DNA of 64,000 bases, taken from NCBI GenBank assembly GCA_017623505.1, contig JAGAOZ010000028.1, positions 1-64,000 of the forward strand, written 5' to 3'. This stretch comes from Alistipes sp. (GTDB lineage: Bacteria > Bacteroidota > Bacteroidia > Bacteroidales > Rikenellaceae). The notes under the pieces are model-generated. The model searched no databases and was not told the DNA's origin. It was given only the letters and a program-made list of their open reading frames with translations. The position numbers and the translations under genes are program-made. Shown here piece after piece: positions 655 to 28,306 of this stretch (within the stretch, counting starts at the first letter, position 1; each line of letters opens with the position of its first letter).

Positions 655-1413
655 TTATCCCTTTATCTTGACTGAGCGGGAGGTGGCGTCGAAGGAGATT
701 ATGTCGCTTGAGAAGAGCTTTTCTATCTCGCCACTGCGAATCATCTGCTCCGTGGGGAGGATGTGAAGCGATGGTGGAGAGATAAGGGCGACAGAGTCGC
801 AGAGCTCCAGAGCGATATCCAACTCGTGCGTAGAGAAGAGTATGCACTTATGCTCCTCGTGTGCCAAACGACGCAGCAATGAGCAGAGCTCATAGCGGTT
901 GGGCATATCCAAAAATGCAGTAGGCTCATCCAGCAAGATGATAGGCGTAGCCTGTGCCAAAGCCCTGGCAATCATTATTCGCTGACACTCACCATCGGAC
1001 ATGTGGTCCATACTCTTCGTGGCATAGTCGCTCATACCGACAGCCGCCAGAGCGTGCATAACCTGCTGCTCATCCTGCTCCTGCAGGCGGCCAATCCAAT
1101 TGGTATAAGGTGCACGACCCAAAGCCACAACATCGCGACAACTCAGGTTGCTGATGCGTACCTTCTCGGTGGTAACGAATGCCAACGTACGAGCCATATC
1201 GGCAGGCGAGAGCGTAGTGATATCTCGCTCGCCAAGCAGAATCCTGCCCTCGATGATAGGTTGCAATGAGGCTAAGGTACGCAGCAGAGTACTCTTGCCC
1301 GAGCCATTTCTGCCCACCAAAGCGGTAAGCTCGCCTGAGCGTATCTCGCCCGTAGCGGAGTGGACAAGCGTGCGGTCGCCGTATGAGAGTCGTATGTTGT
1401 CGAGTCGTATCAT
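655..1413 (-). CDS. ABC transporter ATP-binding protein (FecE/BtuD/FhuC type)
   Basis: This 252-residue cytoplasmic ATPase energises import of an iron-chelate, haem or cobalamin type ligand. Walker A is GRNGSGKS at residues 34-41, the signature loop reads MSDGE at 138-142 (an LSGGQ variant), Walker B is IILLDE at 158-163 with the following P-T-A-F-L-D D-loop, and the H-loop histidine is His196 in STHE. The length is normal for the family. It is the last gene of the minus-strand unit, starting 5 bases after the permease stop. The ligand cannot be read from an ATPase. No riboswitch or metal-box is visible near this operon, which argues against simple B12 control, although BtuD remains possible. 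Confidence 0.9.
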   Translation of the reverse strand: MIRLDNIRLSYGDRTLVHSATGEIRSGELTALVGRNGSGKSTLLRTLASLQPIIEGRILLGERDITTLSPADMARTLAFVTTEKVRISNLSCRDVVALGRAPYTNWIGRLQEQDEQQVMHALAAVGMSDYATKSMDHMSDGECQRIMIARALAQATPIILLDEPTAFLDMPNRYELCSLLRRLAHEEHKCILFSTHELDIALELCDSVALISPPSLHILPTEQMIRSGEIEKLFSSDIISFDATSRSVKIKG

Positions 1414-1418
1414 AGCCT

Positions 1419-2426
1419 TTAGACGATATTGCGTTTTTTAACGATAACCCATATAATAATAGGTATGCCGAGCAGTGCCGTAAGTGCATTTATCGGCAGG
1501 GTATACATCTTCGATAGGATGTCGCACACAAGTAGTGCGATAGCTCCCATAAGTGCCGAGGCGGGCAGGAGCGTGCGGTGGTCGGCATTGGCGAAGATAG
1601 CGCGCGACAGGTGAGGCATAGCCATTCCGATAAAGCCGATAGGACCGCAGAATGCCGTAACAGTACCTGCAAGCAGGGTAGTAGAGAGCAGAATGAGCAG
1701 ACGTGTGCGGGCAACATTTAGTCCCATAGTACGTGCGTAGCCCTCGCCCAGCAGAAGCATATTCATCGGTTTGATGACAGCCACAGCCATAACCAAGCCC
1801 ACGATAATCATCGGGGCGATGATATACAGCTTATCCCAGGTAACGCCACCTAATGAGCCCATAGTCCATACTACGAAGTTTTTGAGGGCCTCTTCCTGGC
1901 TCATAAATTGCAGAATCTGAACCACAGCACCGACAGCAGAGCTTATCATAATACCGATGATAAGCACCACCATTATATCCTTGATACGCTGACTTATAGC
2001 TCCGACTAAAAAGAGTGTTGCCAAAGCTCCAATCCAAGCTGCTCCGGCAATACCCAACGTTGAGAGTTCACTCGATAACATCTGACCCAGAGGAGCCCCT
2101 AAAATAAAGAGTGCAACGCCCAGACTTGCTCCCGAACTGATACCGAGAGTGTAGGGACCCGCCATAGGATTGCGAAAGAGGGTCTGCATTTGTAAACCGC
2201 TGAGTGCAAGTGCAATACCGGCAAGTAGAGCCATGATAGCCTTGACCAACCGGATGTCGATAACGATGGTGACTTTGTAATCCTCTACATCACCGTCGCT
2301 AAACGATGCTACCACGTCGTCAAATGTAATATCAACGCCATCCTCGCCGATGGTTACATCGAAGATAAACAGCCCGCAGAGCACTAAGCTCAGCACGATA
2401 AATAGTATGGTCGTTCTGCTCCGCAT
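1419..2426 (-). CDS. FecCD-family ABC transporter permease
   Basis: This is a 335-residue polytopic inner-membrane permease of the FecCD/BtuC fold. The N-terminal hydrophobic helix (residues ~5-25) and the motif region 'RLVKAIMALLAGIALALSGLQMQTLFRNPMA' around residues 58-90 are hallmarks of the family (R-L-P/V-R ... G..L...G...Q...RNPLA). The later 'GEGYARTMGLNV' segment (~225) is the cytoplasmic coupling helix that contacts the ATPase, and the glycine-rich 'FCGPIGFIGMAMPH' follows it. The gene lies 2 bases after the binding-protein stop and 5 before the ATPase start, so the three are surely co-translated. The substrate is undetermined. Confidence 0.92.
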   Translation of the reverse strand: MRSRTTILFIVLSLVLCGLFIFDVTIGEDGVDITFDDVVASFSDGDVEDYKVTIVIDIRLVKAIMALLAGIALALSGLQMQTLFRNPMAGPYTLGISSGASLGVALFILGAPLGQMLSSELSTLGIAGAAWIGALATLFLVGAISQRIKDIMVVLIIGIMISSAVGAVVQILQFMSQEEALKNFVVWTMGSLGGVTWDKLYIIAPMIIVGLVMAVAVIKPMNMLLLGEGYARTMGLNVARTRLLILLSTTLLAGTVTAFCGPIGFIGMAMPHLSRAIFANADHRTLLPASALMGAIALLVCDILSKMYTLPINALTALLGIPIIIWVIVKKRNIV

Positions 2427-2428
2427 CG

Positions 2429-3586
2429 TTATTGTAGTTTTCGGTGGTAATAGAGGGCCTTGTCGTCAAGCAGGTCGGGATGTATAATCTTAACCAAATC
2501 TGTGAGTATAATATCGGGGTTTATTACGCCCGACTCCCAGAAATCAGAGCCTGAAGAGGCTCTCTGACGGCCATTGTTGTTATATACTTGGCGTTGTTGA
2601 ACAACCGCTACCGAGGCGAAAAGAGGATTTTCGGCAAGTAGCGTTGCGAACGTAGTATGACCACCTACATTGAGCCATATATCGGCCTTATGTGCAAGGC
2701 TGTAAGCTTGCTCGATACCTATCGGCGTGGTGGTGTCGCCCTGCTCGCCCGCCGTGAAGGCGTGACCTCCGGCATCTTCGATAAGCTGTACGATGTAGCT
2801 CTTAGGTGCCGGCAAGTACCAAATGTCGCGGTAAGGAGTGTTGAGTAGTATGTCGGGACGCTCGACGTTGTTTGCTGTGATGTAGCTCTCAACACTATCG
2901 CGTACGCTGTTATAACGCTGAGCAACCGCTGCAAAGAACTCCTCGCCCTGCTTACGGCAACCCATAATCTCTGCCAAAGCAACTATCCACTCGGCTTTGC
3001 CCAGAGGCGATGATTCAAGGTATTCGCCTACATAGAGGTAAGGAATGTCAAAGCTCTTCAGTTGCTCCTCCAGCCCGCTGGGCGAACTCAGTCCATAGAG
3101 GAGAACTAAATCGGGCTTAAGAGATAGAAGTAGCTCAAGGTTGAAATGACCATCATAGCCTATATCTCCAATCTTATCGCCCTGTGCCAATATCTTCTCG
3201 TTATAGATAAACTCCTTGCCCGATACGCCGACAACTGCATCTGCCTGCCCGATAGCATCCAGCATCGCAATATATGACGAAGAGAGACAGACGACGCGCT
3301 CAACCTTGCCATCGACGCGCTGAAGGTGTGGGTGTGACACACCAGTAAAGCGGTTGCCGGGGTCGAGTAGCAACATTCGTGGCTCACACTTATCGCCCTG
3401 CCAGGGTTTCTCAACCACAATCAATGAGGCGTCGCCCTGCTCAGTGCCAAGGATTTGGAATCCGTCGGCATACTCAGGTGTGTAGAGCACTGTTGTAAAG
3501 TCGCTTTTGTCAAACTCTGCAACACCCCGACAGCTCAATGCCATAAGAGCAACAAGTAATATGAAATATCGTATTATCTGTTGCAT
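2429..3586 (-). CDS. Periplasmic substrate-binding lipoprotein (PF01497-type)
   Basis: This 385-residue binding protein is for a metal chelate, haem or corrinoid importer. It has a lipoprotein signal MQQIIRYFILLVALMALSC with the lipid-accepting Cys at residue 19. The class III binding-protein core starts near residue 90 with 'VERVVCLSSSYIAMLDAIGQADAVVGVSG' and continues with 'NLELLLSLKPDLVLLYG', both typical of the BtuF/FecB/FhuD family. The ~60 residues between lipid anchor and core are longer than in E. coli BtuF. The start codon overlaps the 3' end of the upstream LTA-synthase-like gene by 13 bases. It delivers ligand to the permease encoded directly downstream. Confidence 0.9.
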   Translation of the reverse strand: MQQIIRYFILLVALMALSCRGVAEFDKSDFTTVLYTPEYADGFQILGTEQGDASLIVVEKPWQGDKCEPRMLLLDPGNRFTGVSHPHLQRVDGKVERVVCLSSSYIAMLDAIGQADAVVGVSGKEFIYNEKILAQGDKIGDIGYDGHFNLELLLSLKPDLVLLYGLSSPSGLEEQLKSFDIPYLYVGEYLESSPLGKAEWIVALAEIMGCRKQGEEFFAAVAQRYNSVRDSVESYITANNVERPDILLNTPYRDIWYLPAPKSYIVQLIEDAGGHAFTAGEQGDTTTPIGIEQAYSLAHKADIWLNVGGHTTFATLLAENPLFASVAVVQQRQVYNNNGRQRASSGSDFWESGVINPDIILTDLVKIIHPDLLDDKALYYHRKLQ

Positions 3587-5562: not shown

Positions 5563-7539
5563 ATGGGTCGTATCGTAGCCATACTATCTGTGTTTTTATT
5601 CTCTGTGGGGTATTTGCATGCTCAACAGAGCGGAACGACCTATTCGGATGATGCTTTGTCGGTAAGTTCTGCGATTAATGAGCGATATAGTGAAGATTAT
5701 GTGTTGGATTTGATGCAACAGAGTATTGCCTATTTAGACCAAGATGATATGCGTAAGGCTGTTGGTTGCGCCAAACAGGCATATAAGATTGCTCAAAAGA
5801 CCCCAACGCTGAGCTCCGAAACGCAGCTAATGGTCTATACAGCCTTGTGTCTGTGTGGTTATCAGGCAGATGATAGGCGATTGATTGAGGAGTTCTGGCC
5901 TAAGCTCTTTTATTTGCAGCGGGCGGAGATAATTGAACAGCTGGGGCGGCATACATCCGCTTTGCGATATGAGGCTTGGAGGGAGCATTTTGTCTATTTG
6001 GTTGAGGCGAATAGAATGTTTAGTGTTAAGGTTAGAGAGAGTGAGGAGTGTGTTGGTGTAGCATATAATTCTCTGTTACTTTCGAAAGGGCTGCTACTTT
6101 CGTCAGAGACTGAATTTGAACGAGCCGTGAAGCAATCCACAGATGCCGATTTGCAAAAAGAGTACCATCGCCTAAAGCAGATGCAATCTTCACTGCGTAG
6201 TTCATCTTCGTTGCTCTCACCCACGGTTAAGGAGCGTATGGAGAGGTCTGCCCAAGAACTCGAATCGAGCTTAATGGTGCGGGTGCAACAGTCTGGTAAC
6301 TATGCCCAAATATTCAATATCAAGTGGCAGGATGTGCAATCCCGCCTGTCGGATGAAGATGTGGCGATTGAGATTATGGATAATGTATACCATGACGATT
6401 TCCAATCACATCGCGGCTATGTAGCTTTGGTGCTACGCAAAGGGTGGAAAGCCCCTCGTTTTGTTGCCTTGTGCGCAGAGAACATCATAGGAGATGCGTG
6501 TGAGCAGGGTCCCAAGATATATAATGGAGCGGAGTCTAAACATCTATATAATCTACTGTGGGGTCGGTTGGAGCCTTATCTGAAAGATGGTGATAACGTC
6601 TATATTTCGGCAGCCGATTTGCTGCATCAGCTAAACTTTGAGGTCTTGGAGAGCCCCGATGGTCGTCGAGCCAATGAGCGTTATAACGTCCGTCGCGTAT
6701 CATCTACCAAAGAGTTATGCGTGCAGAGAGATGAGCGAGCGTTAGTTAATGCTGTCTTGTACGGTAATCTGAAATACGATGTGGACTCTAAGACGATGGC
6801 TCAGTCGGCCTCCGAAGCTATAAAATACTTGGCAGATAATGATGCTGTGGAGAGTTTGGTGCGCGCAGGTATTGATGAATTGCCGGCTACCGAGCGCGAA
6901 ATTCTCTCTATCGGAAGGGTTTTAGAGCAGCGAGGTATCAGGACTCGACTTTTGATGCGTAGTATGGGTAGCGAAGAGTCTTTCAAGGCTCTGTCGGGCC
7001 GAGCAACATCGATTTTACACATCGCAACACACGGTTTTTATCATCAAGATACTACGTGGCAGCAAATGGATAACTACTGGATTGAGAGAGCACTAATGAT
7101 AAGTGGGACAAGAGAGGAGTTTGATGCTATGATGCGTACGTCGGGTTTGATTCTCTCTGGAGGAGCTGCTGCATGGCGTGGAGAGACGACTCCCGAAGGT
7201 CTTGAGGATGGTGTGTTGTATGCCGAGGAGATTGCGACACTCGACCTTAGCTCGACAGAAATGGTTGTGTTGTCGGCGTGTGAGACAGCTTTAGGTGTCG
7301 TTTTTACGGAGGGTGTTATGGGCTTGCAACGAGCTTTTAAGCGTGCCGGCGTAAGGAGTATAATTATGAGTCTGTGGGAGGTGAATGATGAGGCGACAGC
7401 CCTCTTTATGCGAACCTTCTATGAGCAGTGGCTGGGTGGGGCGTCGCGTCATCAAGCTTTCGTTGCAGCGCAGCGCAGAGTGCGCCAGCAGTATGGCTCG
7501 CAGGACTCTTCTTGGGCGGCATTTATTATGCTGGATTGA
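5563..7539 (+). CDS. Exported CHAT-domain (caspase-like) protein
   Basis: This is a 658-residue protein with a cleavable signal peptide (MGRIVAILSVFLFSVGYLHA-Q). Residues ~40-250 are helical and TPR-like in character. A C-terminal CHAT domain (~360-658) follows, belonging to the caspase/separase clan of cysteine peptidases. The catalytic pair is visible: His490 in 'LHIATHGFY' and Cys573 in 'VLSACETALG'. The downstream 'GVMGLQRAFKRAGVRSIIMSLW' and 'TALFMRTFYEQW' segments are standard CHAT signatures. Both catalytic residues are intact, so peptidase activity is plausible; the substrate is unknown. ATG 5563 is preferred to TTG 5557. The gene appears monocistronic and no partner gene typical of CHAT defence or gasdermin systems is adjacent. 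Confidence 0.88.
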   Translation: MGRIVAILSVFLFSVGYLHAQQSGTTYSDDALSVSSAINERYSEDYVLDLMQQSIAYLDQDDMRKAVGCAKQAYKIAQKTPTLSSETQLMVYTALCLCGYQADDRRLIEEFWPKLFYLQRAEIIEQLGRHTSALRYEAWREHFVYLVEANRMFSVKVRESEECVGVAYNSLLLSKGLLLSSETEFERAVKQSTDADLQKEYHRLKQMQSSLRSSSSLLSPTVKERMERSAQELESSLMVRVQQSGNYAQIFNIKWQDVQSRLSDEDVAIEIMDNVYHDDFQSHRGYVALVLRKGWKAPRFVALCAENIIGDACEQGPKIYNGAESKHLYNLLWGRLEPYLKDGDNVYISAADLLHQLNFEVLESPDGRRANERYNVRRVSSTKELCVQRDERALVNAVLYGNLKYDVDSKTMAQSASEAIKYLADNDAVESLVRAGIDELPATEREILSIGRVLEQRGIRTRLLMRSMGSEESFKALSGRATSILHIATHGFYHQDTTWQQMDNYWIERALMISGTREEFDAMMRTSGLILSGGAAAWRGETTPEGLEDGVLYAEEIATLDLSSTEMVVLSACETALGVVFTEGVMGLQRAFKRAGVRSIIMSLWEVNDEATALFMRTFYEQWLGGASRHQAFVAAQRRVRQQYGSQDSSWAAFIMLD

Positions 7540-7590
7540 TTTTTTAGGAGTGATAAATATATGATTTTCAGTAAAAAGATTGCCGAAAGT

Positions 7591-7620
7591 TTTGATTTCG
7601 AAAAAATATTACTACCTTTG
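7591..7620 (+). promoter_or_regulatory. Promoter of rpsF-rpsR-rplI (TTTG-N18-TAccTTTG)
   Basis: The -33 TTTG (7591-7594) and -7 TACCTTTG (7613-7620) give a near-perfect Bacteroidota promoter 41 bases upstream of the rpsF start codon. Confidence 0.8.
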
Positions 7621-7661
7621 CACCGCTAAAATAGCACAATAACAATTAATTAAAATTTATT

Positions 7662-8009
7662 ATGAACAATTACGAAACCGTTTTCATTGTCACTCCCGTC
7701 CTCTCTGAGGCTCAGGTGCAGGAGGTTGCTGACAAATTCCAGGGCATCATCACCGAGAACGGCGGTCAGATCGTGAATGTGGAGAACTGGGGCTTGAAGA
7801 AGCTTGCATATCCTATTCAGAAGAAGACCACCGGTTTCTACTTCTTGGTAGAGTTCGAGGCTGAGGGTACACTTATCAACAAGCTCGAGACTAACTATCG
7901 TCGTGACGAGCGTATCATTCGTTTCTTAACTTTCAAGCAGGACAAGTTCGCCGTAGAGTACTCTGCAAAGCGTCGTGCAAAGCTTGCTAACAAATCACAG
8001 GAGGAGTAA
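7662..8009 (+). CDS. rpsF: 30S ribosomal protein S6
   Basis: This 115-residue protein binds the central domain of 16S rRNA together with S18. It begins [16 protein letters not shown] and shows the S6 core '[27 protein letters not shown]' and '[17 protein letters not shown]'. The length is typical for Bacteroidales. It is the first gene of the conserved rpsF-rpsR-rplI operon; rpsR follows after 3 bases. S6:S18 autoregulatory leaders are known in many bacteria, but the ~35-base leader here is too short to show one clearly. Confidence 0.98.
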
Positions 8010-8012
8010 ACT

Positions 8013-8294
8013 ATGGCACAGGAGAATGTAAAGGCTGGCGGTGAGATTCGTTATTTGAATCCAGTATCAGTAGATGTAAAGAAGAAGAAGTACTGCCGTT
8101 TTAAGAAGCTCGGTATTAAGTACGTAGATTATAAGGATGGTGAGTTCTTGAAGAAGTTCCTCAACGAGCAGGGTAAGATTTTGCCACGTCGTTTGACCGG
8201 TACTTCACAGAAGTTCCAGAAGAAGGTTGCTCAGGCTGTTAAGCGTGCACGCCACCTCGCAATTTTGCCATTCGTAACCGATTGTATGAAATAA
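8013..8294 (+). CDS. rpsR: 30S ribosomal protein S18
   Basis: This 93-residue small-subunit protein pairs with S6 on the platform. The conserved core '[53 protein letters not shown]' is unmistakable. It lies 3 bases after rpsF and 19 bases before rplI, so it is co-transcribed with both. The zinc-binding cysteines seen in some S18 paralogues are absent apart from single cysteines (C27-like 'KYCRFK' and the C-terminal 'DCMK'), as usual for this phylum. Confidence 0.98.
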
Positions 8295-8313
8295 TTAAGA
8301 GGAGGAGAGCAAT

Positions 8314-8754
8314 ATGGAGATTATTCTTATTAAAGATGTAGAGAACTTGGGCTATGCTAACGACATCGTTAATGTAAAGCCTGGTTATGCAAACAATTAC
8401 TTGATTCCTCAGGGCTTCGCTAAGGCTGCTACTGCTTCTGCAAAGAAGGTGTTGGCAGAGAACCTTCGTCAGCGTGCTCACAAGGATGCAAAGATTTTGG
8501 CTGATGCTCAGGCATTGGCAGAGAAGATTGCTAACCTGCCTTTGGTTATCACTGTTAAGGCAGAGGAGGGTAAGATTTTCGGTGCTGTAACTTCAGCAGA
8601 TGTTGCTGAGGCTTTGGCAGCTAAGGAGATCGTAGTAGACCGTAAGGCTATTGCTGTGGATAGCATTAAGACTGTTGGCGAGTATACCGCTACTGTTAAG
8701 CTCCACCGCGAGGTTAAGGCTACTGTTGCCCTTTCAGTTGTAGCTGAGGAGTAA
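8314..8754 (+). CDS. rplI: 50S ribosomal protein L9
   Basis: This 146-residue large-subunit protein binds domain V of 23S rRNA at the base of the L1 stalk. The N-terminal domain 'MEIILIKDVENLGYANDIVNVKPGYANNYLIPQGFA' and the long connecting helix rich in Ala/Lys are diagnostic. The C-terminal domain contains 'GKIFGAVTSADVAEAL' (family GKLFGSVT). It is the last gene of the rpsF operon and is followed by a strong terminator. Confidence 0.98.
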   Translation: MEIILIKDVENLGYANDIVNVKPGYANNYLIPQGFAKAATASAKKVLAENLRQRAHKDAKILADAQALAEKIANLPLVITVKAEEGKIFGAVTSADVAEALAAKEIVVDRKAIAVDSIKTVGEYTATVKLHREVKATVALSVVAEE

Positions 8755-8780
8755 AACTAGCTTATTAAAGCGTTTTAGAT

Positions 8781-8812
8781 AAGAGCAGGCTTTTGTAGTC
8801 TGCTCTTTTTTC
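8781..8812 (+). terminator. Rho-independent terminator after rplI
   Basis: agagcagg and tctgctct pair around the loop cttttgtag, and the stem runs into a T tract (8804-8812). It sits just upstream of the thiL -7 box, so the ribosomal operon and thiL are insulated. Confidence 0.85.
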
Positions 8813-8814
8813 TG

Positions 8815-8822
8815 TACTTTTG
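8815..8822 (+). promoter_or_regulatory. -7 box (TActTTTG) for thiL
   Basis: TACTTTTG begins only a few bases after the rplI terminator T-tract. It implies a start near 8828 and supports ATG 8841 rather than the earlier TTG at 8820 as the thiL start. Confidence 0.6.
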
Positions 8823-8840
8823 CCAAAAATAAGGACCATT

Positions 8841-9875
8841 ATGAGCGACAAGAAACGTACTGAGATTGCAGAGTTGGGTGAGTTTGGATTGATTGACCTA
8901 CTGACAAAGGATGCCACAAAGAGTAATAAATCGACACTCCGAGGTGTTGGCGATGATTGTGCTGTTGTGGCAGCGGGCCGTGATGATGCATTGGTTATCT
9001 CTACGGATACGATGTTGGAGGGCGTCGATTTCGATTTGACATACTTCCCGCTTAAGCATCTGGGTTATAAGGCTGTAACTGTTGGTGTGAGCGATGTGCT
9101 GGCGATGAATGCTCGTCCGGAGCAGATAATGATATCGCTTGGCGTATCGTCGAAACTTCCCGTGGAGGCTTTGCAGGACTTGTATGAGGGTATTGAGTTT
9201 GCGTGCAAGGAGTTAGACGTGGACTTGGTAGGAGGCGATACATCTGCTTCGATGACAGGCTTGGTTATCAATATTACGGCTATTGGTCGCGCCAAGCGCA
9301 AGGTGCTGACCTATCGTTCGGGTGCTCAGTTCAATGATTTGATATGCGTAACGGGCCCTCTGGGTGGTGCATTTATGGGTTTGAATCTTTTGGAGCGTGA
9401 GAAGCGCGTGTTGAAAGATGTGCAGAACCCTGAGCCACAGTTTAAGGGCTATGAGTACCTGTTACAGAGCTACTTGAAGCCTCGTGCCCGCAAGGATATT
9501 ATTGACGCTTTGGCTGAGGATGGTATCGTGCCTACCTCGATGATTGATATATCGGATGGCCTGGCGAGTGAGGTGTTGCAGCTATGTAAGGCGTCACAGT
9601 GCGGTGCAAGAATCTATCTGGACCGTATTCCTATTGCTCAGCAGACCAATAACCTGGCGGATGAGCTTCACCGCGACCCTGTGGTGGCTGCATTGAATGG
9701 TGGTGAGGATTATGAACTGTTGTTTACCGTACCGCTAGCTATGCAGGAGAAGGTAATGCGTATGGGTATGGTCGATGTGATAGGTCATATTACGCGTCAA
9801 TCAACAGGAGCCTATCTCGTTACTCCCGATGGTAGTGATATCGAACTGAAGGCGCAGGGTTTTGTGAGCAGATAG
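8841..9875 (+). CDS. thiL: Thiamine-monophosphate kinase
   Basis: This 344-residue cytoplasmic enzyme phosphorylates thiamine monophosphate to thiamine diphosphate with ATP. ThiL/PurM-fold motifs are the start 'IAELGEFGLIDLL', 'GVGDDCAVV' (metal/ATP-binding acidic loop), 'STDTMLEGVDFDLTYFPLKHLGYKA' and 'ALNGGEDYELLFT' (C-terminal catalytic loop). Bacteroidota ThiL is about this length. It reads convergently with the following lipoprotein gene: its stop ends at 9875 and the neighbour's stop begins at 9876, with no terminator between them. No TPP riboswitch is present upstream. Confidence 0.95.
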   Translation: MSDKKRTEIAELGEFGLIDLLTKDATKSNKSTLRGVGDDCAVVAAGRDDALVISTDTMLEGVDFDLTYFPLKHLGYKAVTVGVSDVLAMNARPEQIMISLGVSSKLPVEALQDLYEGIEFACKELDVDLVGGDTSASMTGLVINITAIGRAKRKVLTYRSGAQFNDLICVTGPLGGAFMGLNLLEREKRVLKDVQNPEPQFKGYEYLLQSYLKPRARKDIIDALAEDGIVPTSMIDISDGLASEVLQLCKASQCGARIYLDRIPIAQQTNNLADELHRDPVVAALNGGEDYELLFTVPLAMQEKVMRMGMVDVIGHITRQSTGAYLVTPDGSDIELKAQGFVSR

Positions 9876-21474: not shown

Positions 21475-21517
21475 GTAAGGTTGTCCTTCAAACTAATAGG
21501 ATAACCTTATTTTTTTA
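21475..21517. terminator. Terminator shared by rubredoxin and the B12 operon
   Basis: aaggttgtcct / aggataacctt pair (one mismatch) and are followed by a run of T on the plus strand. It abuts the stop codon of the btuB-like gene on the minus strand, so it separates convergent units. Confidence 0.75.
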
Positions 21518-23560
21518 CCACTTGGGCGTAATGCCTATAAAAATCTCGAAGTTGATGCCCGGCATTGGGCGTGAGAGTACCGAGAGATACTCTTCGTCGA
21601 AGAGATTATTCACGCTACCTTTTATCGAGAGTTCTGCCCAACTCAGTGAGAAACCTTTTTCGAGCGAAAGGTTGTTCATGTAATATTTAGGTAGCTCGCC
21701 CGTGAGCGTTATGTCGTTGCTCGACATAGTATATCGCTCGCTGTAATAGCACCACTTATAGAGTAACGACCAACTGCGCCACCTGAGTTCGCCCGTAAGC
21801 GACGAGGACCACTCAGGTGTATAAGGGAGCTGTCGTCCTACCGATTTGTCGGCCGGAGTAAGTGGCTCGCCCTCGTTTATGGAAGGTGTCCACGAGAGGG
21901 TAGCATTGAGCCTTATTAACCACTCCTTTGCGAGTGCCACATCTGCCTTGCCTTGTAGCTCTACTCCATAGGCATGCACATCCTTTACGTTACGTGGTGA
22001 GAGAAATCCCTTAGGTGTCGTGAGCCACAAAATCCAATCCTCAATGTGTGAGTCGAACCATGTTGCCGACGCCTCTATACGATAGCTATCCTCCTTGCCT
22101 ACGGCAAATGATATACCGGCATCGTAGCTCCAGCCCTTCTCTTTGCGCAGGTCAGGATTACCACCGGGCAGGAAATATAGGTCGTTGAGCGTCGGGAAAC
22201 GGAAGTTGCGTGATACAGAGCCCTTGAGCATTACAGCACCACGTCGCGACAGCTCATATTCGGCAAACAGGGCAGGTATGATGGGCGAAAACTCTTCGCC
22301 ATACATCTCTTCTCGCATCACAGCCGAGAGCCCCAATCGCTCCGTAGGTCGCCACTTGAGCGACAGAGAGCCCGAAAGCTCCGTGCGACTTTGGTCGTAG
22401 CCTACAACAGCCTTGTTACCATCCTGGCGTATAACATTCTTATCGCGGCTCTCAACAAAGTGCTGGTGGGCTGTGATATTGGCTGTTATAAGCCATTTAT
22501 TTGATATAAACCACTCCGCTTCGCCTTGTGCGAAGAGAGTGTTGGTGATACTGCGCGAGCGAGTCATCGCCTCCATCTTGCCATTGCCGGGGTCGCGCTT
22601 AAAGTCGTATGCCGTCCACGAGTAGACATATCCCGCCTTTGCTGCTACCTTCCAGTTGCGACGTATGTGGTCCCACTCAACGACGCTGCGCAGCGTCTGT
22701 TCCCGTTGGCGGTTGTCAAAGGCATTCTCATCGCCATAATCTGTTGTAAGCATTGCCAATTCGCGGTTTGAATTGACATACCATGCACTCAGCGAGAGCC
22801 TATCTCCTTTGCCGCTGTTAAACGAAATCTCCTGAAGGATATTCAGGTCTTTATATGCTCCGCTACGGTTGCGCTCTATGGGGTAGTACTTACCGATGAT
22901 ATTCATCTGCTCGTCATAGATGTTTTCGCGCTTATCTCGATTGCGATACTTGAAGTCGTTAGGTGATGAGGAGTATGCCACACGTGTCGAGAATTGCCAT
23001 TTACGGCAGCCATAGGTCAGTCGTAGAAACTCGTCAAATGTGCGGAATGAGCCTATACCTTGGATGTATTGCAAGCCGAAGCCCTCGTTTGTAAGTGGCT
23101 GTGTGGAGAGTCTTACCGAGCCACCCAAGCCACCTCCCGTATCGTGAATGGATGATGTGCCGTGTAGTAGCGATGCTTTGTCGATAAAGTAGGAGGGTAT
23201 CATCGAAAAGTCGGTCATACCCAACATTGGACTATTTATTCTTAGTCCATTCCACGTAACTTGTGTATGTGAGGGTGATGTGCCTCGAAATGATACGGTA
23301 GAAAGGGTTGCTCTGCCGTAATTTTTGACGAATATTGAGGAGTTGAAGGTCAGCACATCTGCCATCGAGAGCGAGATGCTCTCCTTGAGAACGCGCTCCT
23401 CAAAATCGGTCTTCTGCGTGCCTATATCCTTCATTGGTCGCTCGCCAAAGAACTCTACCTCAGGGATGTCGATACCATCCTCAAGCCAATTATCGTTGGT
23501 TTGAGCATGAGCCGACACCGTAGCCGTAAGAGCGAACAATATGACTAAAAAGCTCCTCAT
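21515..23560 (-). CDS. btuB: BtuB-like TonB-dependent receptor (vitamin B12 uptake)
   Basis: This 681-residue outer-membrane receptor has a signal peptide MRSFLVILFALTATVSAHA-Q and a TonB-box-like segment (~'DIPEVEFFG'). A plug domain (residues ~45-150) reads 'SMADVLTFNSSIFVKNYGRATLSTVSFRGTSPSHTQVTWNGLRINSPMLG', and a 22-strand type barrel ends in 'FEIFIGITPKW'. The size and plug match cobalamin receptors rather than SusC. It is the last of four genes behind a cobalamin riboswitch, which supports B12 or corrinoid as substrate. I use ATG 23560 rather than the in-frame TTG at 23578, because it leaves a 5-base gap after the upstream gene. TonB-ExbBD energise it from elsewhere. Confidence 0.88.
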   Translation of the reverse strand: MRSFLVILFALTATVSAHAQTNDNWLEDGIDIPEVEFFGERPMKDIGTQKTDFEERVLKESISLSMADVLTFNSSIFVKNYGRATLSTVSFRGTSPSHTQVTWNGLRINSPMLGMTDFSMIPSYFIDKASLLHGTSSIHDTGGGLGGSVRLSTQPLTNEGFGLQYIQGIGSFRTFDEFLRLTYGCRKWQFSTRVAYSSSPNDFKYRNRDKRENIYDEQMNIIGKYYPIERNRSGAYKDLNILQEISFNSGKGDRLSLSAWYVNSNRELAMLTTDYGDENAFDNRQREQTLRSVVEWDHIRRNWKVAAKAGYVYSWTAYDFKRDPGNGKMEAMTRSRSITNTLFAQGEAEWFISNKWLITANITAHQHFVESRDKNVIRQDGNKAVVGYDQSRTELSGSLSLKWRPTERLGLSAVMREEMYGEEFSPIIPALFAEYELSRRGAVMLKGSVSRNFRFPTLNDLYFLPGGNPDLRKEKGWSYDAGISFAVGKEDSYRIEASATWFDSHIEDWILWLTTPKGFLSPRNVKDVHAYGVELQGKADVALAKEWLIRLNATLSWTPSINEGEPLTPADKSVGRQLPYTPEWSSSLTGELRWRSWSLLYKWCYYSERYTMSSNDITLTGELPKYYMNNLSLEKGFSLSWAELSIKGSVNNLFDEEYLSVLSRPMPGINFEIFIGITPKW

Positions 23561-23565
23561 AATAA

Positions 23566-24636
23566 CTATTTCCAACAAAAAGCACCTGGGATTACGCCCA
23601 CGTAGAATTCATCCAACTTCTCGCCTTGTGCAGAGTAACGATAAATCATTCCGGGCTGCTGATAATCTATCGCGTCGGCTATATATACATCGCCCGAACG
23701 AGGGCATACGGTCAAACCATAGTAGATTGTACCCCTGGCAGCGAGGAAAGGCTCAAATGGCAGCAATGTGGCATCAACCCCCATCTGCCAAATATCGTCG
23801 TTTATCCAATATATAGTGTCGCCCTTGCCGTTTATTTGTATCTCCGATGGTGCATCACCTTTGCGGAAATGAAACTCTCGCTCGATGGTAAAACTATCGG
23901 CGTCAATGCAATACAAGGCAGGAGCCTCGTAGCCGTATGGACTATCCTCAAAACCTCCGTCGGTGATGGTCCATAGTTTATTGTTCTTGTCAAGCACGAT
24001 AGATGTTGGCTGAATACCAACCTCTAATTGAGCCACTATTTCATCGGTGCGAGTGTCGATTTTGAGTATTTTGTTTTGATATGACCAGCAATTCACATAG
24101 AGATAATCGCCCCACTGCACCATCTGCTCCGTCGAGCCACTCTCCATTGTCATACCCTCGCACTCGATGTAGCCCGTTATCTCATATCGCTGTGGGTTGA
24201 TTATGGCTATACGGTTGTCCCAGATTTGTGTTACATACGCCTTCTCGTCCGATACAAAATGGATGTATCGTGGTGAGGTAAAGCCCTCAATTCTACCCAC
24301 CTCACGGAAGGTGCGGGTATCGATTGCGAATACAACGTGAGAGTTATTGACTACCACCCAGCCGATATTGTTATGAATAGTCATCGACTGAGCCACGTCG
24401 CCCAGACGCATAGCATTGGCACGATAGAAGACCTCATTCTCGACAGTTTTCGTCGTGGGATTATAGTATGAGAGTGTTGCGTTACCATAGTTGAAATTAC
24501 CCTCGTTAAGGATGAACAACCCCTCGTCTGATGCTGCGAACTCCTCCTCGATACCGTATTTCCATTCCATACAACCGCTTAGTGCCGACACCAAAGCCAG
24601 CACTAAAGCGAATTTGTATGTTGAAAACTTTATCAT
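23566..24636 (-). CDS. btuG: BtuG-like surface beta-propeller lipoprotein
   Basis: This is a 356-residue lipoprotein (lipobox ..SALSGC, Cys22) made of YncE/DUF5074-like propeller blades: 'GLFILNEGNFNYGNATLSYYNP', 'HVVFAIDTRTFREVGRIEGF', 'DNRIAIINPQRYEITGYIEC', 'KILKIDTRTDEIVAQLEVGIQPTSIVLDKNNKLWTITDGG'. In Bacteroides, BtuG proteins of this architecture bind cobalamin very tightly on the cell surface and sit as a lid on BtuB. The position directly before the btuB-like gene and behind a B12 riboswitch supports the same role here. The symbol is by homology and context, not proven. Confidence 0.82.
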   Translation of the reverse strand: MIKFSTYKFALVLALVSALSGCMEWKYGIEEEFAASDEGLFILNEGNFNYGNATLSYYNPTTKTVENEVFYRANAMRLGDVAQSMTIHNNIGWVVVNNSHVVFAIDTRTFREVGRIEGFTSPRYIHFVSDEKAYVTQIWDNRIAIINPQRYEITGYIECEGMTMESGSTEQMVQWGDYLYVNCWSYQNKILKIDTRTDEIVAQLEVGIQPTSIVLDKNNKLWTITDGGFEDSPYGYEAPALYCIDADSFTIEREFHFRKGDAPSEIQINGKGDTIYWINDDIWQMGVDATLLPFEPFLAARGTIYYGLTVCPRSGDVYIADAIDYQQPGMIYRYSAQGEKLDEFYVGVIPGAFCWK

Positions 24637-24640
24637 ACTA

Positions 24641-25573
24641 CTAAAATACCATTTTGTAGTCTACCACAGAAAAGACCTCTGTCGAAAGCTCGCCTAAATG
24701 ACCGCTCTTGGCATTGACACCGCACTGCACCTTGACAAAGTCGATATACTTCAACTCGGCGGCATTACCCCACGTATCGACAGCGTTGTCTATATCGAAA
24801 AGGTTGAATGCTCCGTTGCGAGAGATGAAATCTACAGAGCTCTGGTTGTCGGCATAGCCCCAATCGTAGGCAGGTTGCACCCACATTGTGCCATTACCCG
24901 ACTTGTCATAGTTGCGTGCCTCGAGGCGTGTGCCACTGAGAGTATAGCTGTCGGCAGCAATCCACGCAGGGTAGTAATAATCCTGCGAGTGGTGAGCACC
25001 CACATAGTCTACCTCGCCCTCTGCTCCCTCGCTGTCGCTCCACTTAACCGCCGACTGAGGCTCTGCGGGGCGGTAGTAGGTAACGGAGTAGTTCTGTATG
25101 GTCGTAGGCTTACCGCTCTCGCTACCTCTCAGCTCATACCAACTGTCGTTAGGTTTGCCGTCGCCATTCTCATCCTGCATAACCCATACAATGCCTGGCT
25201 CGGATGAACCATCGAAGGAGTTACCCTCCACAGCAAAGTCATAGCCGCCACCATTATCGACACTATGGTCGAAACCCACGACAATATAGCCACCAAAGCC
25301 TCCGAGCGAGACGAAACGACCCTCACTCATACGTCGCTCGGCATAAGCCACAGCAGCCTCGGCGGTGAGCTCCTCGCCCGTAAAGCCCGATGTCTTCAGC
25401 TCGTTGATGAACTGCCCGGGGGCAGGAGTGTATTCCCACACCTCTTGAGCCTCCGCTGCCGAAGACTCGGTGCGAGGGCGATAACGCTCATCCTCAATCT
25501 GCTCGGTTATAACCTCGTTCTTATTACACGCCACTGCAAGCAGTAGCAGCGACAAAAGTCTTAAATACTTCAT
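24641..25573 (-). CDS. Surface lipoprotein of the B12 locus
   Basis: This is a 310-residue lipoprotein; MKYLRLLSLLLLAVAC gives a lipidated Cys16. After a short acidic linker the mature domain starts 'EYTPAPGQFINELKTSGF' and contains 'VSLGGFGGYIVVGFDHSVDNGGGYDFAVEGNSFDGSSEPGIVWVMQDENGDGKPNDSWYELRGSE'. The DENGDGKPND element is a likely calcium-binding loop. Similar 'PAPGQFIN' lipoproteins recur beside BtuB/BtuG genes in gut Bacteroidota, so a part in corrinoid capture is likely, but its exact job is unknown. It lies 4 bases upstream of btuG and 8 bases after the DUF4465 gene, in the same operon. Confidence 0.75.
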   Translation of the reverse strand: MKYLRLLSLLLLAVACNKNEVITEQIEDERYRPRTESSAAEAQEVWEYTPAPGQFINELKTSGFTGEELTAEAAVAYAERRMSEGRFVSLGGFGGYIVVGFDHSVDNGGGYDFAVEGNSFDGSSEPGIVWVMQDENGDGKPNDSWYELRGSESGKPTTIQNYSVTYYRPAEPQSAVKWSDSEGAEGEVDYVGAHHSQDYYYPAWIAADSYTLSGTRLEARNYDKSGNGTMWVQPAYDWGYADNQSSVDFISRNGAFNLFDIDNAVDTWGNAAELKYIDFVKVQCGVNAKSGHLGELSTEVFSVVDYKMVF

Positions 25574-25581
25574 TATATCGT

Positions 25582-26730
25582 CTATTCAAATATTACCTTC
25601 ACATCATCGTAGGCAAAGTATCCTGCAACACCCAGACCGTACTCGGTATAGAGGTCCTCGCTACCCACAAGGTTGAAATCTACCCTTGCTACCTTACCCA
25701 GCGATGTCAAATCCCACTCAGTCCACTCCGAAACGCCTACTCTGCCTTCACGCCAGAGATAGAACTCTGCCTCGCCCGTAGGCTCATCGTTCTCATCGAA
25801 GCCATACGCCACAATCTTAAACCAGCTCTCATCCGATGCTCCCGTAGGTACCTGCCAACCATCGCCATTGGTGAGCAGATTATATACATAGGTAGTGTTG
25901 GTAACCATCATACTCTCGATGGTACGAGCCACACCATCAGCAAAATGGAAGCCTAACATCTCGTTCATCATACCCAAGCCAGAGTCATCCACAAAACCAA
26001 AATGAACGCAGAAGTTCTCCGATCCATTAGCTCCGCCCGCAACATTATACGCCTGCAAGTCGTGCATATAGTCGCCTTGCGAAAGGTCGCTGCCCACGTA
26101 GTGCGACAAAGCGTGTCCGCCATAGCCGGGGAACATTGCATTTGCCGATGGGGTAAAGGCTAACATCGTATTACCCTCGTCTACCCACGCGTAATGGCCA
26201 TTACCGTTGCCATACTCACTATCGGCAGGAATAAAATCGGACCAATAGGTAGCCGACACGCCACCCTTGTAATCCGAGTCCTCGAAAGTCAAAGTACGTA
26301 CCTCTGCCATAGGCTCCTCTGAAACGGTAGGAAGAACTATCACACGTCCATCGGTCAGTGTGATGATGACCACACCATCGCCAATCTCAACCGAAGCAAA
26401 GAGAGAATCACCACTTGTGCCATCCTCACCATCTTTGCCATCCTCGCCGTCCTGACCGTCCTCTCCATCACGTCCGTTGCGGATTGCGATAGATGAGCCA
26501 TCGCTGAAACGGAGGGTATAACCCTCATCGGTAGGCTCTACTGAGGTGATAACCTTACCCTCGGATAGAGCATCCATCAATGCTGTGAGCGTTGCGATAT
26601 CCTCGGTGTTCTGATCAATCTGCCCCTGCATCTGATCAACCTTCGACCATAAATCATCGTCGTCGTACTCACATCCAACCATTGGTGCCACAGCTAAAGC
26701 CACAGCTGCCAAAACAAAAAATCTCTTCAT
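25582..26730 (-). CDS. DUF4465 lipoprotein with DUF4988-like stalk and collagen-like linker
   Basis: This is a 382-residue lipoprotein (lipobox APMVGC, Cys20). Residues ~27-58 form a short coiled coil ('LWSKVDQMQGQIDQNTEDIATL', DUF4988-like). Residues 86-104 are Gly-x-Asp/Gln triplets resembling collagen (GRDGEDGQDGEDGKDGEDG). Residues ~147-382 are a DUF4465 beta-sandwich starting 'LTFEDSDYKGGVSATYWSDFIPADSEYGNGNGHYAW' and ending 'GYFAYDDVKVIFE'. DUF4465 proteins are repeatedly encoded in corrinoid-uptake loci and some are surface B12-binding proteins; that this one binds B12 is inference from the riboswitch directly upstream. The stalk could trimerise and push the ligand-binding domain away from the membrane. 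Confidence 0.83.
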   Translation of the reverse strand: MKRFFVLAAVALAVAPMVGCEYDDDDLWSKVDQMQGQIDQNTEDIATLTALMDALSEGKVITSVEPTDEGYTLRFSDGSSIAIRNGRDGEDGQDGEDGKDGEDGTSGDSLFASVEIGDGVVIITLTDGRVIVLPTVSEEPMAEVRTLTFEDSDYKGGVSATYWSDFIPADSEYGNGNGHYAWVDEGNTMLAFTPSANAMFPGYGGHALSHYVGSDLSQGDYMHDLQAYNVAGGANGSENFCVHFGFVDDSGLGMMNEMLGFHFADGVARTIESMMVTNTTYVYNLLTNGDGWQVPTGASDESWFKIVAYGFDENDEPTGEAEFYLWREGRVGVSEWTEWDLTSLGKVARVDFNLVGSEDLYTEYGLGVAGYFAYDDVKVIFE

Positions 26731-26856
26731 AATGCATCAATATTTTAAGTTAATAAAAAGGTCGCATTTTGAAGAGCAGAACCAAAAAATTAACTCAAAA
26801 CATCTTTGCCGTAAATGTCTGAAAAACAGCAGTTTCCCAAACACATAGCCCCAAAC

Positions 26857-26912
26857 ACTACGGGCTCAATTCTAACATTACGGATAAAATTAGTTTTGAT
26901 TTGTCCCGTAGT
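26857..26912 (-). promoter_or_regulatory. Leader hairpin between riboswitch and first gene
   Basis: The 8-base arms actacggg (26857-26864) and cccgtagt (26905-26912) can pair in the B12-operon leader RNA. They may be part of the expression platform or a stability element; there is no T-tract. About 125 further leader bases follow before the start codon. Confidence 0.4.
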
Positions 26913-26937
26913 CCTGCAGGTCAAAAATCTAAAATGC

Positions 26938-27120
26938 AAAGGCAGGTCTTCTGACTTATCCCCCTGTCGCGCCTTCCCGGTATTACCCAGTGGCAAAGAG
27001 TGCGACAGCCTTCGATTCCGAATCCGGAATGGGACTTACAGCAACAGGTATTGTTACGGATTTACACCGTATTTCCTTTTCACCTCCTTGACCGCATCGG
27101 GCCGCAGAGGAACCATTTGC
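26938..27120 (-). promoter_or_regulatory. Cobalamin riboswitch
   Basis: Minus-strand RNA carries the landmarks of the class: GGTGTAAATCCGTAAC and CTGTTGCTGTAA (the J3/4-P5 region), the B12 box gccactgggtaatacc-gggaaggcg, and the closing gtcagaagacctgcc. The P1 arms are gcaaatgg at the 5' side and cctgcctttgc at the 3' side. It begins at the predicted transcription start (~27121) of the four-gene outer-membrane B12 operon and should shut it down when cobalamin is plentiful. Confidence 0.95.
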
Positions 27121-27125
27121 AAGTG

Positions 27126-27156
27126 CAAAATTATCTATAATTTCTGAAATTGCAAA
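27126..27156 (-). promoter_or_regulatory. Promoter of the B12 operon (TTTG-N19-TAatTTTG)
   Basis: Minus-strand -33 TTTG (27156-27153) and -7 TAATTTTG (27133-27126), placed so that transcription starts right at the riboswitch 5' arm. Confidence 0.85.
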
Positions 27157-27220: not shown

Positions 27221-28306
27221 ATGGCAGACAATTCAATACTTATTCGCCTCGATGGCTTGAAGCTCAAATATGAAGAGATAGGACAGAAACTCACTGACCC
27301 TGAAGTTATTGCCGACGTTAAGCAGTTTGTTCAGCTTACGAAGGAGTACAAGGAGTTAGAGCCAATTATTGAGACTTCGGAGCGTTATCGCAAGGCTGTT
27401 GATGCCTTGGCTGATGCGAAGGATATCCTTGCCAACGATAAGGACGAGGATATGCGTGAGATGGCACGTGAGGAGATTGCAACTCTGGAGCCTCAGCTCG
27501 TAACTATGGAGGAGGAGATTAAGCTCCTGCTTATCCCAAAAGACCCTCAGGATGAGAAGAATGCTATCCTTGAGATTCGCGGCGGTACGGGTGGCGACGA
27601 GGCTGCTATCTTCGCCGGTGACCTGTTGCGTATGTATACCAAGTACATCGAGTCGAAGGGCTGGCGTTACGAGATTACTTCGTTCTCTGACGGTGCAGTA
27701 GGTGGCTACAAGGAGGTTGTGCTGAAAGTTACCGGTCAGAGTGTCTATGGTACACTCAAGTATGAGTCTGGTGTTCACCGCGTACAGCGTGTGCCACAGA
27801 CCGAGACTCAGGGCCGTGTTCACACCTCGGCAGCATCTGTTGCTGTATTGCCGGAGGCAGAGGAGTTCGATGTTGAGATTTCGATGAACGATATTCGCAA
27901 GGATATTTTCTGTGCTTCGGGCCCTGGTGGACAGTCTGTAAATACCACCTATTCGGCTATCCGTCTGACGCACATCCCTACGGGTATCGTCGTGCAGTGT
28001 CAGGACCAGAAGTCGCAGCTCAAGAACTTCGATAAGGCTTTTGAGGAGTTGCGTACGCGTGTCTTCAACCTTGAGTATTCGAAGTATCTTGACGAGATTG
28101 CATCGAAGCGTAAGACTATGGTCTCGACAGGTGACCGTTCGGCTAAGATTCGTACCTATAACTATCCTCAGGGCCGAATCACCGACCACCGTATCAACTA
28201 TACAATCTACAACCTCTCGGCCTTTATGGATGGCGATATTCAGGACTGCATCGACCACCTTATCGTAGCTGAAAATGCTGAGCGCTTGAAGGAGAGCGAG
28301 TTGTAG
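27221..28306 (+). CDS. prfA: Peptide chain release factor 1
   Basis: This 361-residue factor reads UAA/UAG stop codons and triggers peptide release. The stop-recognition motif PxT is PQT at residues 192-194 and the catalytic GGQ is at 236-238 in 'CASGPGGQSVNTTYSAIRLTH'. The GGQ glutamine is the site of PrmC methylation in the family. The length is normal. It is divergent from the B12 operon and separated from dusB by a terminator hairpin. Confidence 0.97.
   Translation: MADNSILIRLDGLKLKYEEIGQKLTDPEVIADVKQFVQLTKEYKELEPIIETSERYRKAVDALADAKDILANDKDEDMREMAREEIATLEPQLVTMEEEIKLLLIPKDPQDEKNAILEIRGGTGGDEAAIFAGDLLRMYTKYIESKGWRYEITSFSDGAVGGYKEVVLKVTGQSVYGTLKYESGVHRVQRVPQTETQGRVHTSAASVAVLPEAEEFDVEISMNDIRKDIFCASGPGGQSVNTTYSAIRLTHIPTGIVVQCQDQKSQLKNFDKAFEELRTRVFNLEYSKYLDEIASKRKTMVSTGDRSAKIRTYNYPQGRITDHRINYTIYNLSAFMDGDIQDCIDHLIVAENAERLKESEL

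Follow-up and report, generated by a model that had tools for sequence, protein, structure and literature searches.

A riboswitch-led btuJ-btuH-btuG-btuB operon as the probable B12 acquisition locus of an Alistipes-like Rikenellaceae bacterium

The window analysed here, a stretch of 64,000 nucleotides from an Alistipes genome (contig JAGAOZ010000028.1), carries a four-gene operon that is very probably a B12 (corrinoid) acquisition locus of an Alistipes-like Rikenellaceae bacterium, presumably repressed by B12 via its leader and encoding surface proteins that feed the receptor BtuB. B12 is contested in the gut, and how surface lipoproteins beyond the BtuB-BtuG core find it and hand it over is an open question. 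Judged by homology, each of the four genes has precedent, its likely function being known at the family level. The less ordinary parts, both little described as far as our literature searches went, are the stalk on BtuJ and the expression platform of the leader.

Operon structure and riboswitch

27126..27156, minus strand: promoter-like TTTG-N19-TAnnTTTG, its -7 element located at the aptamer's 5' edge (sequence)
26924..27133, minus strand: cobalamin riboswitch aptamer (RF00174, 83.7 bits)
25582..26730, minus strand: ORF1, BtuJ-family lipoprotein, 382 amino acids (Pfam and PDB matches)
24641..25573, minus strand: ORF2, BtuH B12-binding domain as a stand-alone lipoprotein, 310 amino acids (7biz, 9.4e-98)
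23566..24636, minus strand: ORF3, BtuG beta-propeller lipoprotein, 356 amino acids (8p97 chain B)
21515..23578, minus strand: ORF4, BtuB TonB-dependent B12 receptor, 687 amino acids from TTG (PDB, Pfam)

The four genes share one strand. ORF1 and ORF2 lie 8 nt apart, ORF2 and ORF3 only 4 nt, and ORF3 and ORF4 overlap by 13 nt if the latter begins at its TTG; the divergent gene that starts at 27221 is presumably that for release factor, prfA. Upstream of ORF1, cmscan matched the full RF00174 Cobalamin model (positions 1-189; E 3.9e-19) at a score far above the gathering threshold of 31.5 bits. This is the only RF00174 match in the genome of the window (G000; 2.0 Mb, 29 contigs, 93.7% complete), and a cobalamin riboswitch was found in 58 of the 61 genomes made up of this one and 60 relatives. 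The promoter-like element, TTTG-N19-TAATTTTG, fits what we take to be the Bacteroidota -33/-7 consensus, and its position places the predicted transcription start near the 5' strand of P1. It recurs at the same place in four of eight related loci (L039, L040, L041 and L045, the last with a spacer of 18), and no match was seen there in L042, L043 or L044; the L046 sequence is incomplete at this point. A generic scan for promoters and terminators gave a result no better than chance.

These results bear out much of an earlier note on the same DNA, which had placed a cobalamin riboswitch at 26938-27120, inside the Rfam match that it proposed as a check, and at the predicted transcription start of the operon. 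Its reading of a B12 surface-capture system with a BtuG/BtuB pair agrees with the riboswitch score and with the homology of ORF3 (E 3.1e-177) and ORF4 (E 0), and its statement that the operon has neither an enzyme nor an inner-membrane transporter is right for the four genes.

Among named records, metagenome genomes of Rikenellaceae and Alistipes come nearest, with L039 in first place at 98% identity across ORF1. From 23 candidate related loci we kept eight, having dropped 15 whose match was stalk-only, low-complexity or weak. All eight show the order btuJ-btuH-btuG-btuB and the riboswitch (incomplete in L046). In L042, BtuH bears PKD/Ig-like domains, and its leader belongs to a different, terminator-containing type. 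L043 has btuJ twice, as tandem copies at 6995-8077 and 8099-9247; by eye, their stalks are near-identical and their heads diverged, with 68% and 48% identity to the protein of the window. Three loci (L046, from about 404; L102; L105) have a small open frame between the riboswitch leader and a fimbrillin-type btuJ. These frames, read by eye, start MEKK, MERK and MEKQ, so that the start codon of the leader belongs there to a gene other than btuJ.

Surface proteins

ORF4 matches solved BtuB structures along its full length (8bmx chain C, 8p98 and 8p97, all at E 0) and has the Pfam barrel and plug; NCBIfam BtuB models match it under their cut-offs. ORF3 is a full-length BtuG homolog, matching 8p97 chain B across residues 12-356. 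BtuG is described as the lid of BtuB (PMC10404256); both families have solved structures, and published measurements show B12 binding for BtuG and transport for BtuB.

No Pfam family matches ORF2, and its identity comes from the B12-binding domain of BtuH2 (7biz), which it matches across residues 23-306; the match to the BtuH domain fused to BtuG1 (8blw) has an E of 1.2e-62, a fusion described in PMC10404256. Six of the eight residues of BtuH2 that are named as B12 contacts (PMC8941943) are kept in ORF2 (Gln333, Asn399, Phe401, His476, Trp511 and Leu578). The other two are replaced, Tyr510 by Met (Met in 11 of 20 rows) and Trp577 by His (Trp in 14 of 20 rows). Residues 134-143 (DENGDGKPND), the "Ca loop" of the earlier note, align with DINGNGLPDD of BtuH2; two calcium ions are included in the published model of the BtuH2 structure (PMC8941943).

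ORF1 consists of a lipoprotein cysteine (Cys20), DUF4988 (residues 27-90; 58 bits, Pfam), a collagen-like run of eight Gly-X-Y triplets (86-109) and a DUF4465 head (203-377) that scores 111.4 bits against a Pfam cut-off of 25. Among solved structures, the best match is an unnamed protein (4jqr, 2e-10), followed by BtuJ2 (9i2l, 1.9e-7); D5EK51 (9hmu) is matched at 3.6e-5. The pocket tyrosines of loops DE and HI, reported as Tyr146 and Tyr245 in BtuJ1, correspond to Tyr281 and Tyr371 here, and each of the 27 aligned proteins has both. The HI loop reads GVAGYF in place of the usual GTPAYF, with the tyrosine kept and the threonine and proline changed; the proline is kept in 19 of the 27 rows. Published HI-loop positions are conserved at above 70%, with the tyrosine alone at 97%, and for this reason we did not count the whole motif as defining. 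Both this loop and the Met and His of ORF2 count against our overall explanation.

HMM searches over 24641-26730, as the earlier note proposed, thus yield DUF4465/BtuJ for ORF1 and, through the 7biz match, a BtuH domain for ORF2. The note's DUF4465 assignment stands, and its suggestion that the two extra lipoproteins are little-described, new corrinoid binders does not: both belong to families with measured binding (PMC12751083, PMC13398666, PMC8941943). BtuJ1 and BtuJ2, which are DUF4465 proteins, bind B12 very tightly and serve uptake by vesicles (PMC12751083). B12 binding was also found for every one of six further DUF4465 proteins from distant bacteria, the ones amenable to expression; a Rikenellaceae bacterium was the source of one of the six (PMC13398666). 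BtuH likewise binds B12 and helps fitness (PMC8941943).

The same genome encodes a second DUF4465 lipoprotein-like protein of 261 amino acids (L002:1486-2271, contig C25), with the HI loop STPKYF. No riboswitch match was found near it, and the gene directly upstream is, we assume, amidohydrolase-like.

Inner-membrane transport and B12 demand

655..3586, minus strand: BtuD-like (655-1413), BtuC-like (1419-2426) and BtuF-like (2429-3586) genes (FecCD, NCBIfam)

This set forms a separate operon in the same window, 18 kb from the btuJ-btuH-btuG-btuB operon, and Rfam gave no riboswitch at 655-3586. For the BtuC-like and BtuD-like proteins the best NCBIfam models are corrinoid transporters, and for the BtuF-like protein BtuF ranks only third, all far below their cut-offs. 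Because the permease is the only FecCD protein over the cut-off in the genome, this operon most likely completes the B12 pathway. The genome has two B12-binding domains, one in a 719-amino-acid frame that we take to be methylmalonyl-CoA mutase and one in a small protein whose following gene is presumably glutamate mutase MutL. The B12-dependent methionine synthase domain (PF02965) was not found in this 93.7% complete genome; seven of 14 control genomes have it.

A collagen-like stalk on BtuJ

Between the lipid anchor and the DUF4465 head of ORF1, the eight Gly-X-Y triplets are uninterrupted and adjoin a segment that looks heptad-like by eye. We surveyed this part in 30 BtuJ rows. They came from 39 rows, of which we excluded 10: L003, because this copy is that of the window and was entered from there instead; the distant L018, L022, L025, L033, L067, L076 and L078, which lack such a stalk; and L100 and L116, which are incomplete and have a fimbrillin-like start. 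A DUF4988-like stalk with 6-20 Gly-X-Y triplets occurs in 17 of the 30 and one with few triplets in five; five more show nothing recognisable between anchor and head, and in three this part is fimbrillin-like, a label that passes the Pfam cut-off in L105 only (Mfa_like_2), with L046 below the cut-off and L102 giving no match. When mapped on a tree built from the heads only, the four stalk types require at least nine changes. All four occur within the window's own clade of 12 (support 100/99), where at least five changes are required. We also drew 29 open frames of other families of the order from the top DUF4465 matches, such a match being present in 60 of 148 genomes; in this sample, which is biased to high scores, none has a Gly-X-Y run of six or more or a match to the stalk profile.

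As far as our literature searches went, a collagen-like stalk on BtuJ is little described. Searches on DUF4988 and on collagen-like Bacteroides lipoproteins turned up no description of one among the papers listed, and the word collagen is absent from the main texts of both DUF4465 papers (PMC12751083, PMC13398666).

How the stalk behaves can be read in two ways. The DUF4988/collagen-like part may be a mere loose spacer on a monomeric ORF1, a reading to which we give an even chance. L045 and L108, close relatives with a similar head, have no stalk, from which it follows that binding hardly needs one, and N-termini resembling DUF4988 are seen in other proteins too; residues 1-88, for example, match the model of a hyaluronan lyase family, far under its cut-off. 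A loose spacer fits less well with the eight uninterrupted triplets here, lying beside a heptad-like segment, with the 6-20 triplets in 17 of the 30 rows, and with the Pfam Collagen model, which matches 14 of 27 BtuJ proteins at E ≤0.01, though the 18.4 bits of the window's protein fall under the cut-off of 27.2. The stalk may instead form a trimeric rod. In the broader form of this proposal, which we put forward only tentatively and hold to be on the doubtful side, BtuJ of this genus would be a trimeric B12 trap, with a DUF4988 coiled coil and a collagen triple helix of lineage-specific length holding three DUF4465 heads off the surface. The rod would have been swapped for other spacers while head and operon stayed constant, and evolution would have tuned reach or avidity and not the pocket. 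Beside this trap, the operon would be controlled by a leader RNA of two layers, with the partner of the B12-sensing loop L13 and a segment that covers the start codon next to each other. Close relatives with similar heads on 0-20 Gly-X-Y triplets offer a natural series in which to measure the value of reach.

Predicted alternative pairings in the leader RNA

27042..27049, minus strand: loop L5 (ACCUGUUG), kissing partner of L13 (five-base complement in L13)
26898..26929, minus strand: P13 hairpin (GAUUU/AAAUC, CC/GG) with loop L13 (alignment)
26911..26917, minus strand: L13 segment GCAGGAC, with two alternative partners, L5 and GUUCUGC (RNAalifold, complementarity)
26893..26899, minus strand: UCAAAAC, possible alternative partner of GUUUUGA (invariant and paired in 14 of 14 rows)
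26795..26801, minus strand: GUUUUGA, overlapping the 5' arm of the pre-start hairpin (RNAalifold, alignment)
26743..26800, minus strand: pre-start hairpin UUUUGAGUUAAU / AUUAACUUAAAA, arms 26789-26800 and 26743-26754 (alignment, fold)
26776..26782, minus strand: GUUCUGC, the L13 target (RNAalifold on the alignment, pairing count)
26764..26776, minus strand: CUCUUCAAAAUGC, complementary to the start-codon region (duplex energies)
26723..26735, minus strand: start-codon region GCAUUAUGAAGAG (complementarity to CUCUUCAAAAUGC)

The stretch 26727-26943 folds with a z-score of -5.3, and none of 200 shuffles was as low. L5 and L13 of the window can form a kissing loop through CCUGU/GCAGG. A script found L5 in 54 of 88 genus and order loci, and its pentamer is fully complementary to L13 in 36 of these; three were not read, and the 15 with CCCGC lack a five-base partner, which counts against our explanation. 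The complemented pentamers are of five kinds (CCUGU, CCUGC, CCCGU, CUCGC and CCAGU), each with a matching L13, which amounts to covariation. The mean duplex value is -8.3 for own pairs, -7.9 across loci and -6.3 for shuffled sequences, so own pairs have only a slight statistical advantage over pairs across loci.

From an alignment of 14 leaders, RNAalifold returned, unprompted, just two helices, both long-range: L13 GCAGGAC with GUUCUGC, and UCAAAAC with GUUUUGA. GUUCUGC pairs with its own L13 by seven of seven standard pairs in all 14 leaders (L046 is outside the count), as sought with a pattern that was written after the target had been seen. In L105 the pair is altered on both sides (GCAGGUG/CACCUGC), and in L113, which is outside the alignment, the target GUCCUGC is a one-side change. 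An open search for 7/7 sites of L13 in seven leaders recovered GUUCUGC in each, along with a second site nearer P13 in three. Across 268 genomes of the family, the L13 pattern occurs in 20, all in the window's genus, and the reversed pattern gave no match; 19 of these 20 loci, which are largely the same as the 14 leaders or near copies of them, have the target, the exception being L120 with GUUCCGC. The UCAAAAC/GUUUUGA pair is invariant in all 14 rows, and such invariance neither supports nor opposes pairing.

The two hairpins are well kept in the same 14 rows, P13 with 99.0% of 98 cells paired and the pre-start hairpin with 92.3% of 155, and for both the shuffle control reaches the observed value. 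Changes in P13 are one-sided only, and the pre-start hairpin shows no both-side changes; this, too, counts against our explanation. The pre-start hairpin is part of the minimum-free-energy fold, and 12 nt separate its end from the start codon. Its 5' arm contains or adjoins both GUUUUGA and GUUCUGC, and it is this placement of the two possible targets on the 5' side of the hairpin that leads us to a switch model. Literature searches for such an L13 switch platform in Bacteroidota found no description, judging from their listings.

Two other helices were tried and set aside. CUACGGG/CCCGUAG, a further rearrangement present in the fold and considered as a general switch helix, is kept in only 66.3% of cells, which we also count against our explanation, and reaches the ≤5% level in four of 15 leaders; CCGUAA/UUACGG, as an extension of UCAAAAC/GUUUUGA, is kept in 73.8% of cells.

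Predicted start-codon pairing and the mode of control

Directly behind GUUCUGC sits CUCUUCAAAAUGC, which can pair with the start-codon region (mean duplex value -10.4 for own segments, -6.8 for those of other loci and -5.4 for shuffled ones). The pairing beats shuffles at the ≤4% level in 10 of 14 leaders, with differing sequences (CUCCACAGC/GCUAUGGAG in L043), and is absent in four; L046 is outside this count, and several of the ten are near copies, leaving few independent cases. It nests with the pairing of L13 to its target. When L13 is placed on the target, the start codon is paired with 26764-26775, and in the unconstrained fold the AUG is free, which taken alone suggests an activating switch. 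A simple model of repression by start-codon pairing was therefore dropped, as the pairing falls in the presumed ON state. The fold energies are -79.6 kcal/mol for the free fold, -76.2 with L13 on its target and -69.1 with P13, the last without the contribution of the kissing loop. That the fold with L13 on target is less stable than the free fold counts against our explanation; the energies do not settle the direction of the switch. Repression would be saved if the pre-start hairpin took part in a pseudoknot when B12 is bound. Bacteria of this kind make little use of Shine-Dalgarno sequences, and the leader is a testable case of how a riboswitch can control a start codon in them.

Instead of the switch outlined here, the leader could be an ordinary transcription attenuator. 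With B12 bound, transcription would end at an inner hairpin (GGUUCUGC..GCGACC) that precedes a U5 run, and both the longer A/U hairpin and the start-codon pairing would be incidental. We regard this as a serious possibility, somewhat short of an even chance. Seventeen loci, hand-picked from the 88, have, downstream of P13, a G+C hairpin that ends in a U tail and can pair with L13 through its 5' arm (mean -12.8 with the own arm, -11.7 with the arms of other loci and -8.0 shuffled; eight of the 17 singly at the ≤5% level). Moreover, L084, L089 and L096 carry UGUUCU..AGAACA-CUUUUU at the position of the window, and premature termination is expected in PMC12751083. On the other hand, the inner stem of the window is weak and its leader had no match in a scan for a hairpin plus U run, L044, L046 and L102 retain the arrangement without the U run, and the start-codon pairing is kept with altered sequence in most leaders.

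Ligand and proposed mechanism

That the true ligand is another corrinoid, such as pseudocobalamin or cobinamide, and not cobalamin, we consider unlikely. BtuH2 contacts mainly the corrin ring and the nucleotide loop, which are common to cobamides (PMC8941943), and promoters of B. thetaiotaomicron respond to pseudocobalamin too (PMC12751083); against this, the B12-bound structures named in the literature passages contain cyanocobalamin. For the direction of control, we infer repression by B12 from the homologous operons of B. thetaiotaomicron, whose tested promoters are B12-repressed (PMC12751083).

We propose that the leader would permit expression of the four genes when B12 is scarce, with L13 and perhaps UCAAAAC holding the 5' side of the pre-start hairpin open. 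At the cell surface, and perhaps on vesicles as well, BtuJ and BtuH would bind B12 very tightly before handing it to BtuG, which caps the BtuB pore as a lid. BtuB would then take it through the outer membrane, and the separate BtuFCD-like transporter would carry it further. When B12 is plentiful, the aptamer would be bound, L5 would kiss L13 and P13 would form. P13 and the kissing loop would thereby take L13 away from GUUCUGC, the released pre-start hairpin would form and expression would stop; this hairpin may act on transcription, translation or both. The opposite polarity, in which L13 holds GUUCUGC and CUCUUCAAAAUGC covers the start codon without B12 and B12 frees it, has in its favour the two folds described above (start codon paired with L13 on target, AUG unpaired otherwise) and the existence of an activating corrinoid riboswitch (PMC10653944), yet is very improbable in view of the B12 repression of such uptake operons in B. 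thetaiotaomicron (PMC12751083), the four leaders that lack the start-codon pairing and the pseudoknot-free nature of the folds.

Comparison with known systems

As far as the published passages on these systems go, the closest parallel is with the cobamide uptake operons of B. thetaiotaomicron (PMC12751083, PMC10404256), which share the same riboswitches, the BtuJ, BtuH and BtuG lipoproteins and the BtuB receptor; for one of them no riboswitch is known, and in this it resembles the BtuFCD-like genes of the window. The operon of the window differs in being a minimal J-H-G-B set, with BtuJ first and on a stalk and BtuH reduced to its bare C-terminal domain. That domain corresponds to the B12-binding domain of BtuH2 (7BIZ; PMC8941943). 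Unlike BtuH2, ORF2 has no PKD/Ig-like domains, and BtuH forms without extra domains are already in print. With BtuJ1, BtuJ2 and the DUF4465 family (9FCT, 9I2L, 9HMU), ORF1 shares the DUF4465 head and both pocket tyrosines, and it differs from them by its DUF4988 and collagen-like stalk and its GVAGYF loop. Both subunits of the BtuB-BtuG pedal-bin transporter (8P97, 8P98, 8BMX; PMC10404256) match ORF3 and ORF4 at E ≤1e-170.

For the leader, the nearest relative in design is the corrinoid riboswitch of P. megaterium metE (PMC10653944), where the logic of competing pairings has been shown by mutation. It has the same L5-L13 kissing loop, and, as proposed here, a hairpin further downstream offers its P13 region an alternative partner in the 5' arm. 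In the leader of the window, however, L13 itself is the alternative partner, 128 nt from its target, and the hairpin lies immediately ahead of the start codon, ending 12 nt before it.
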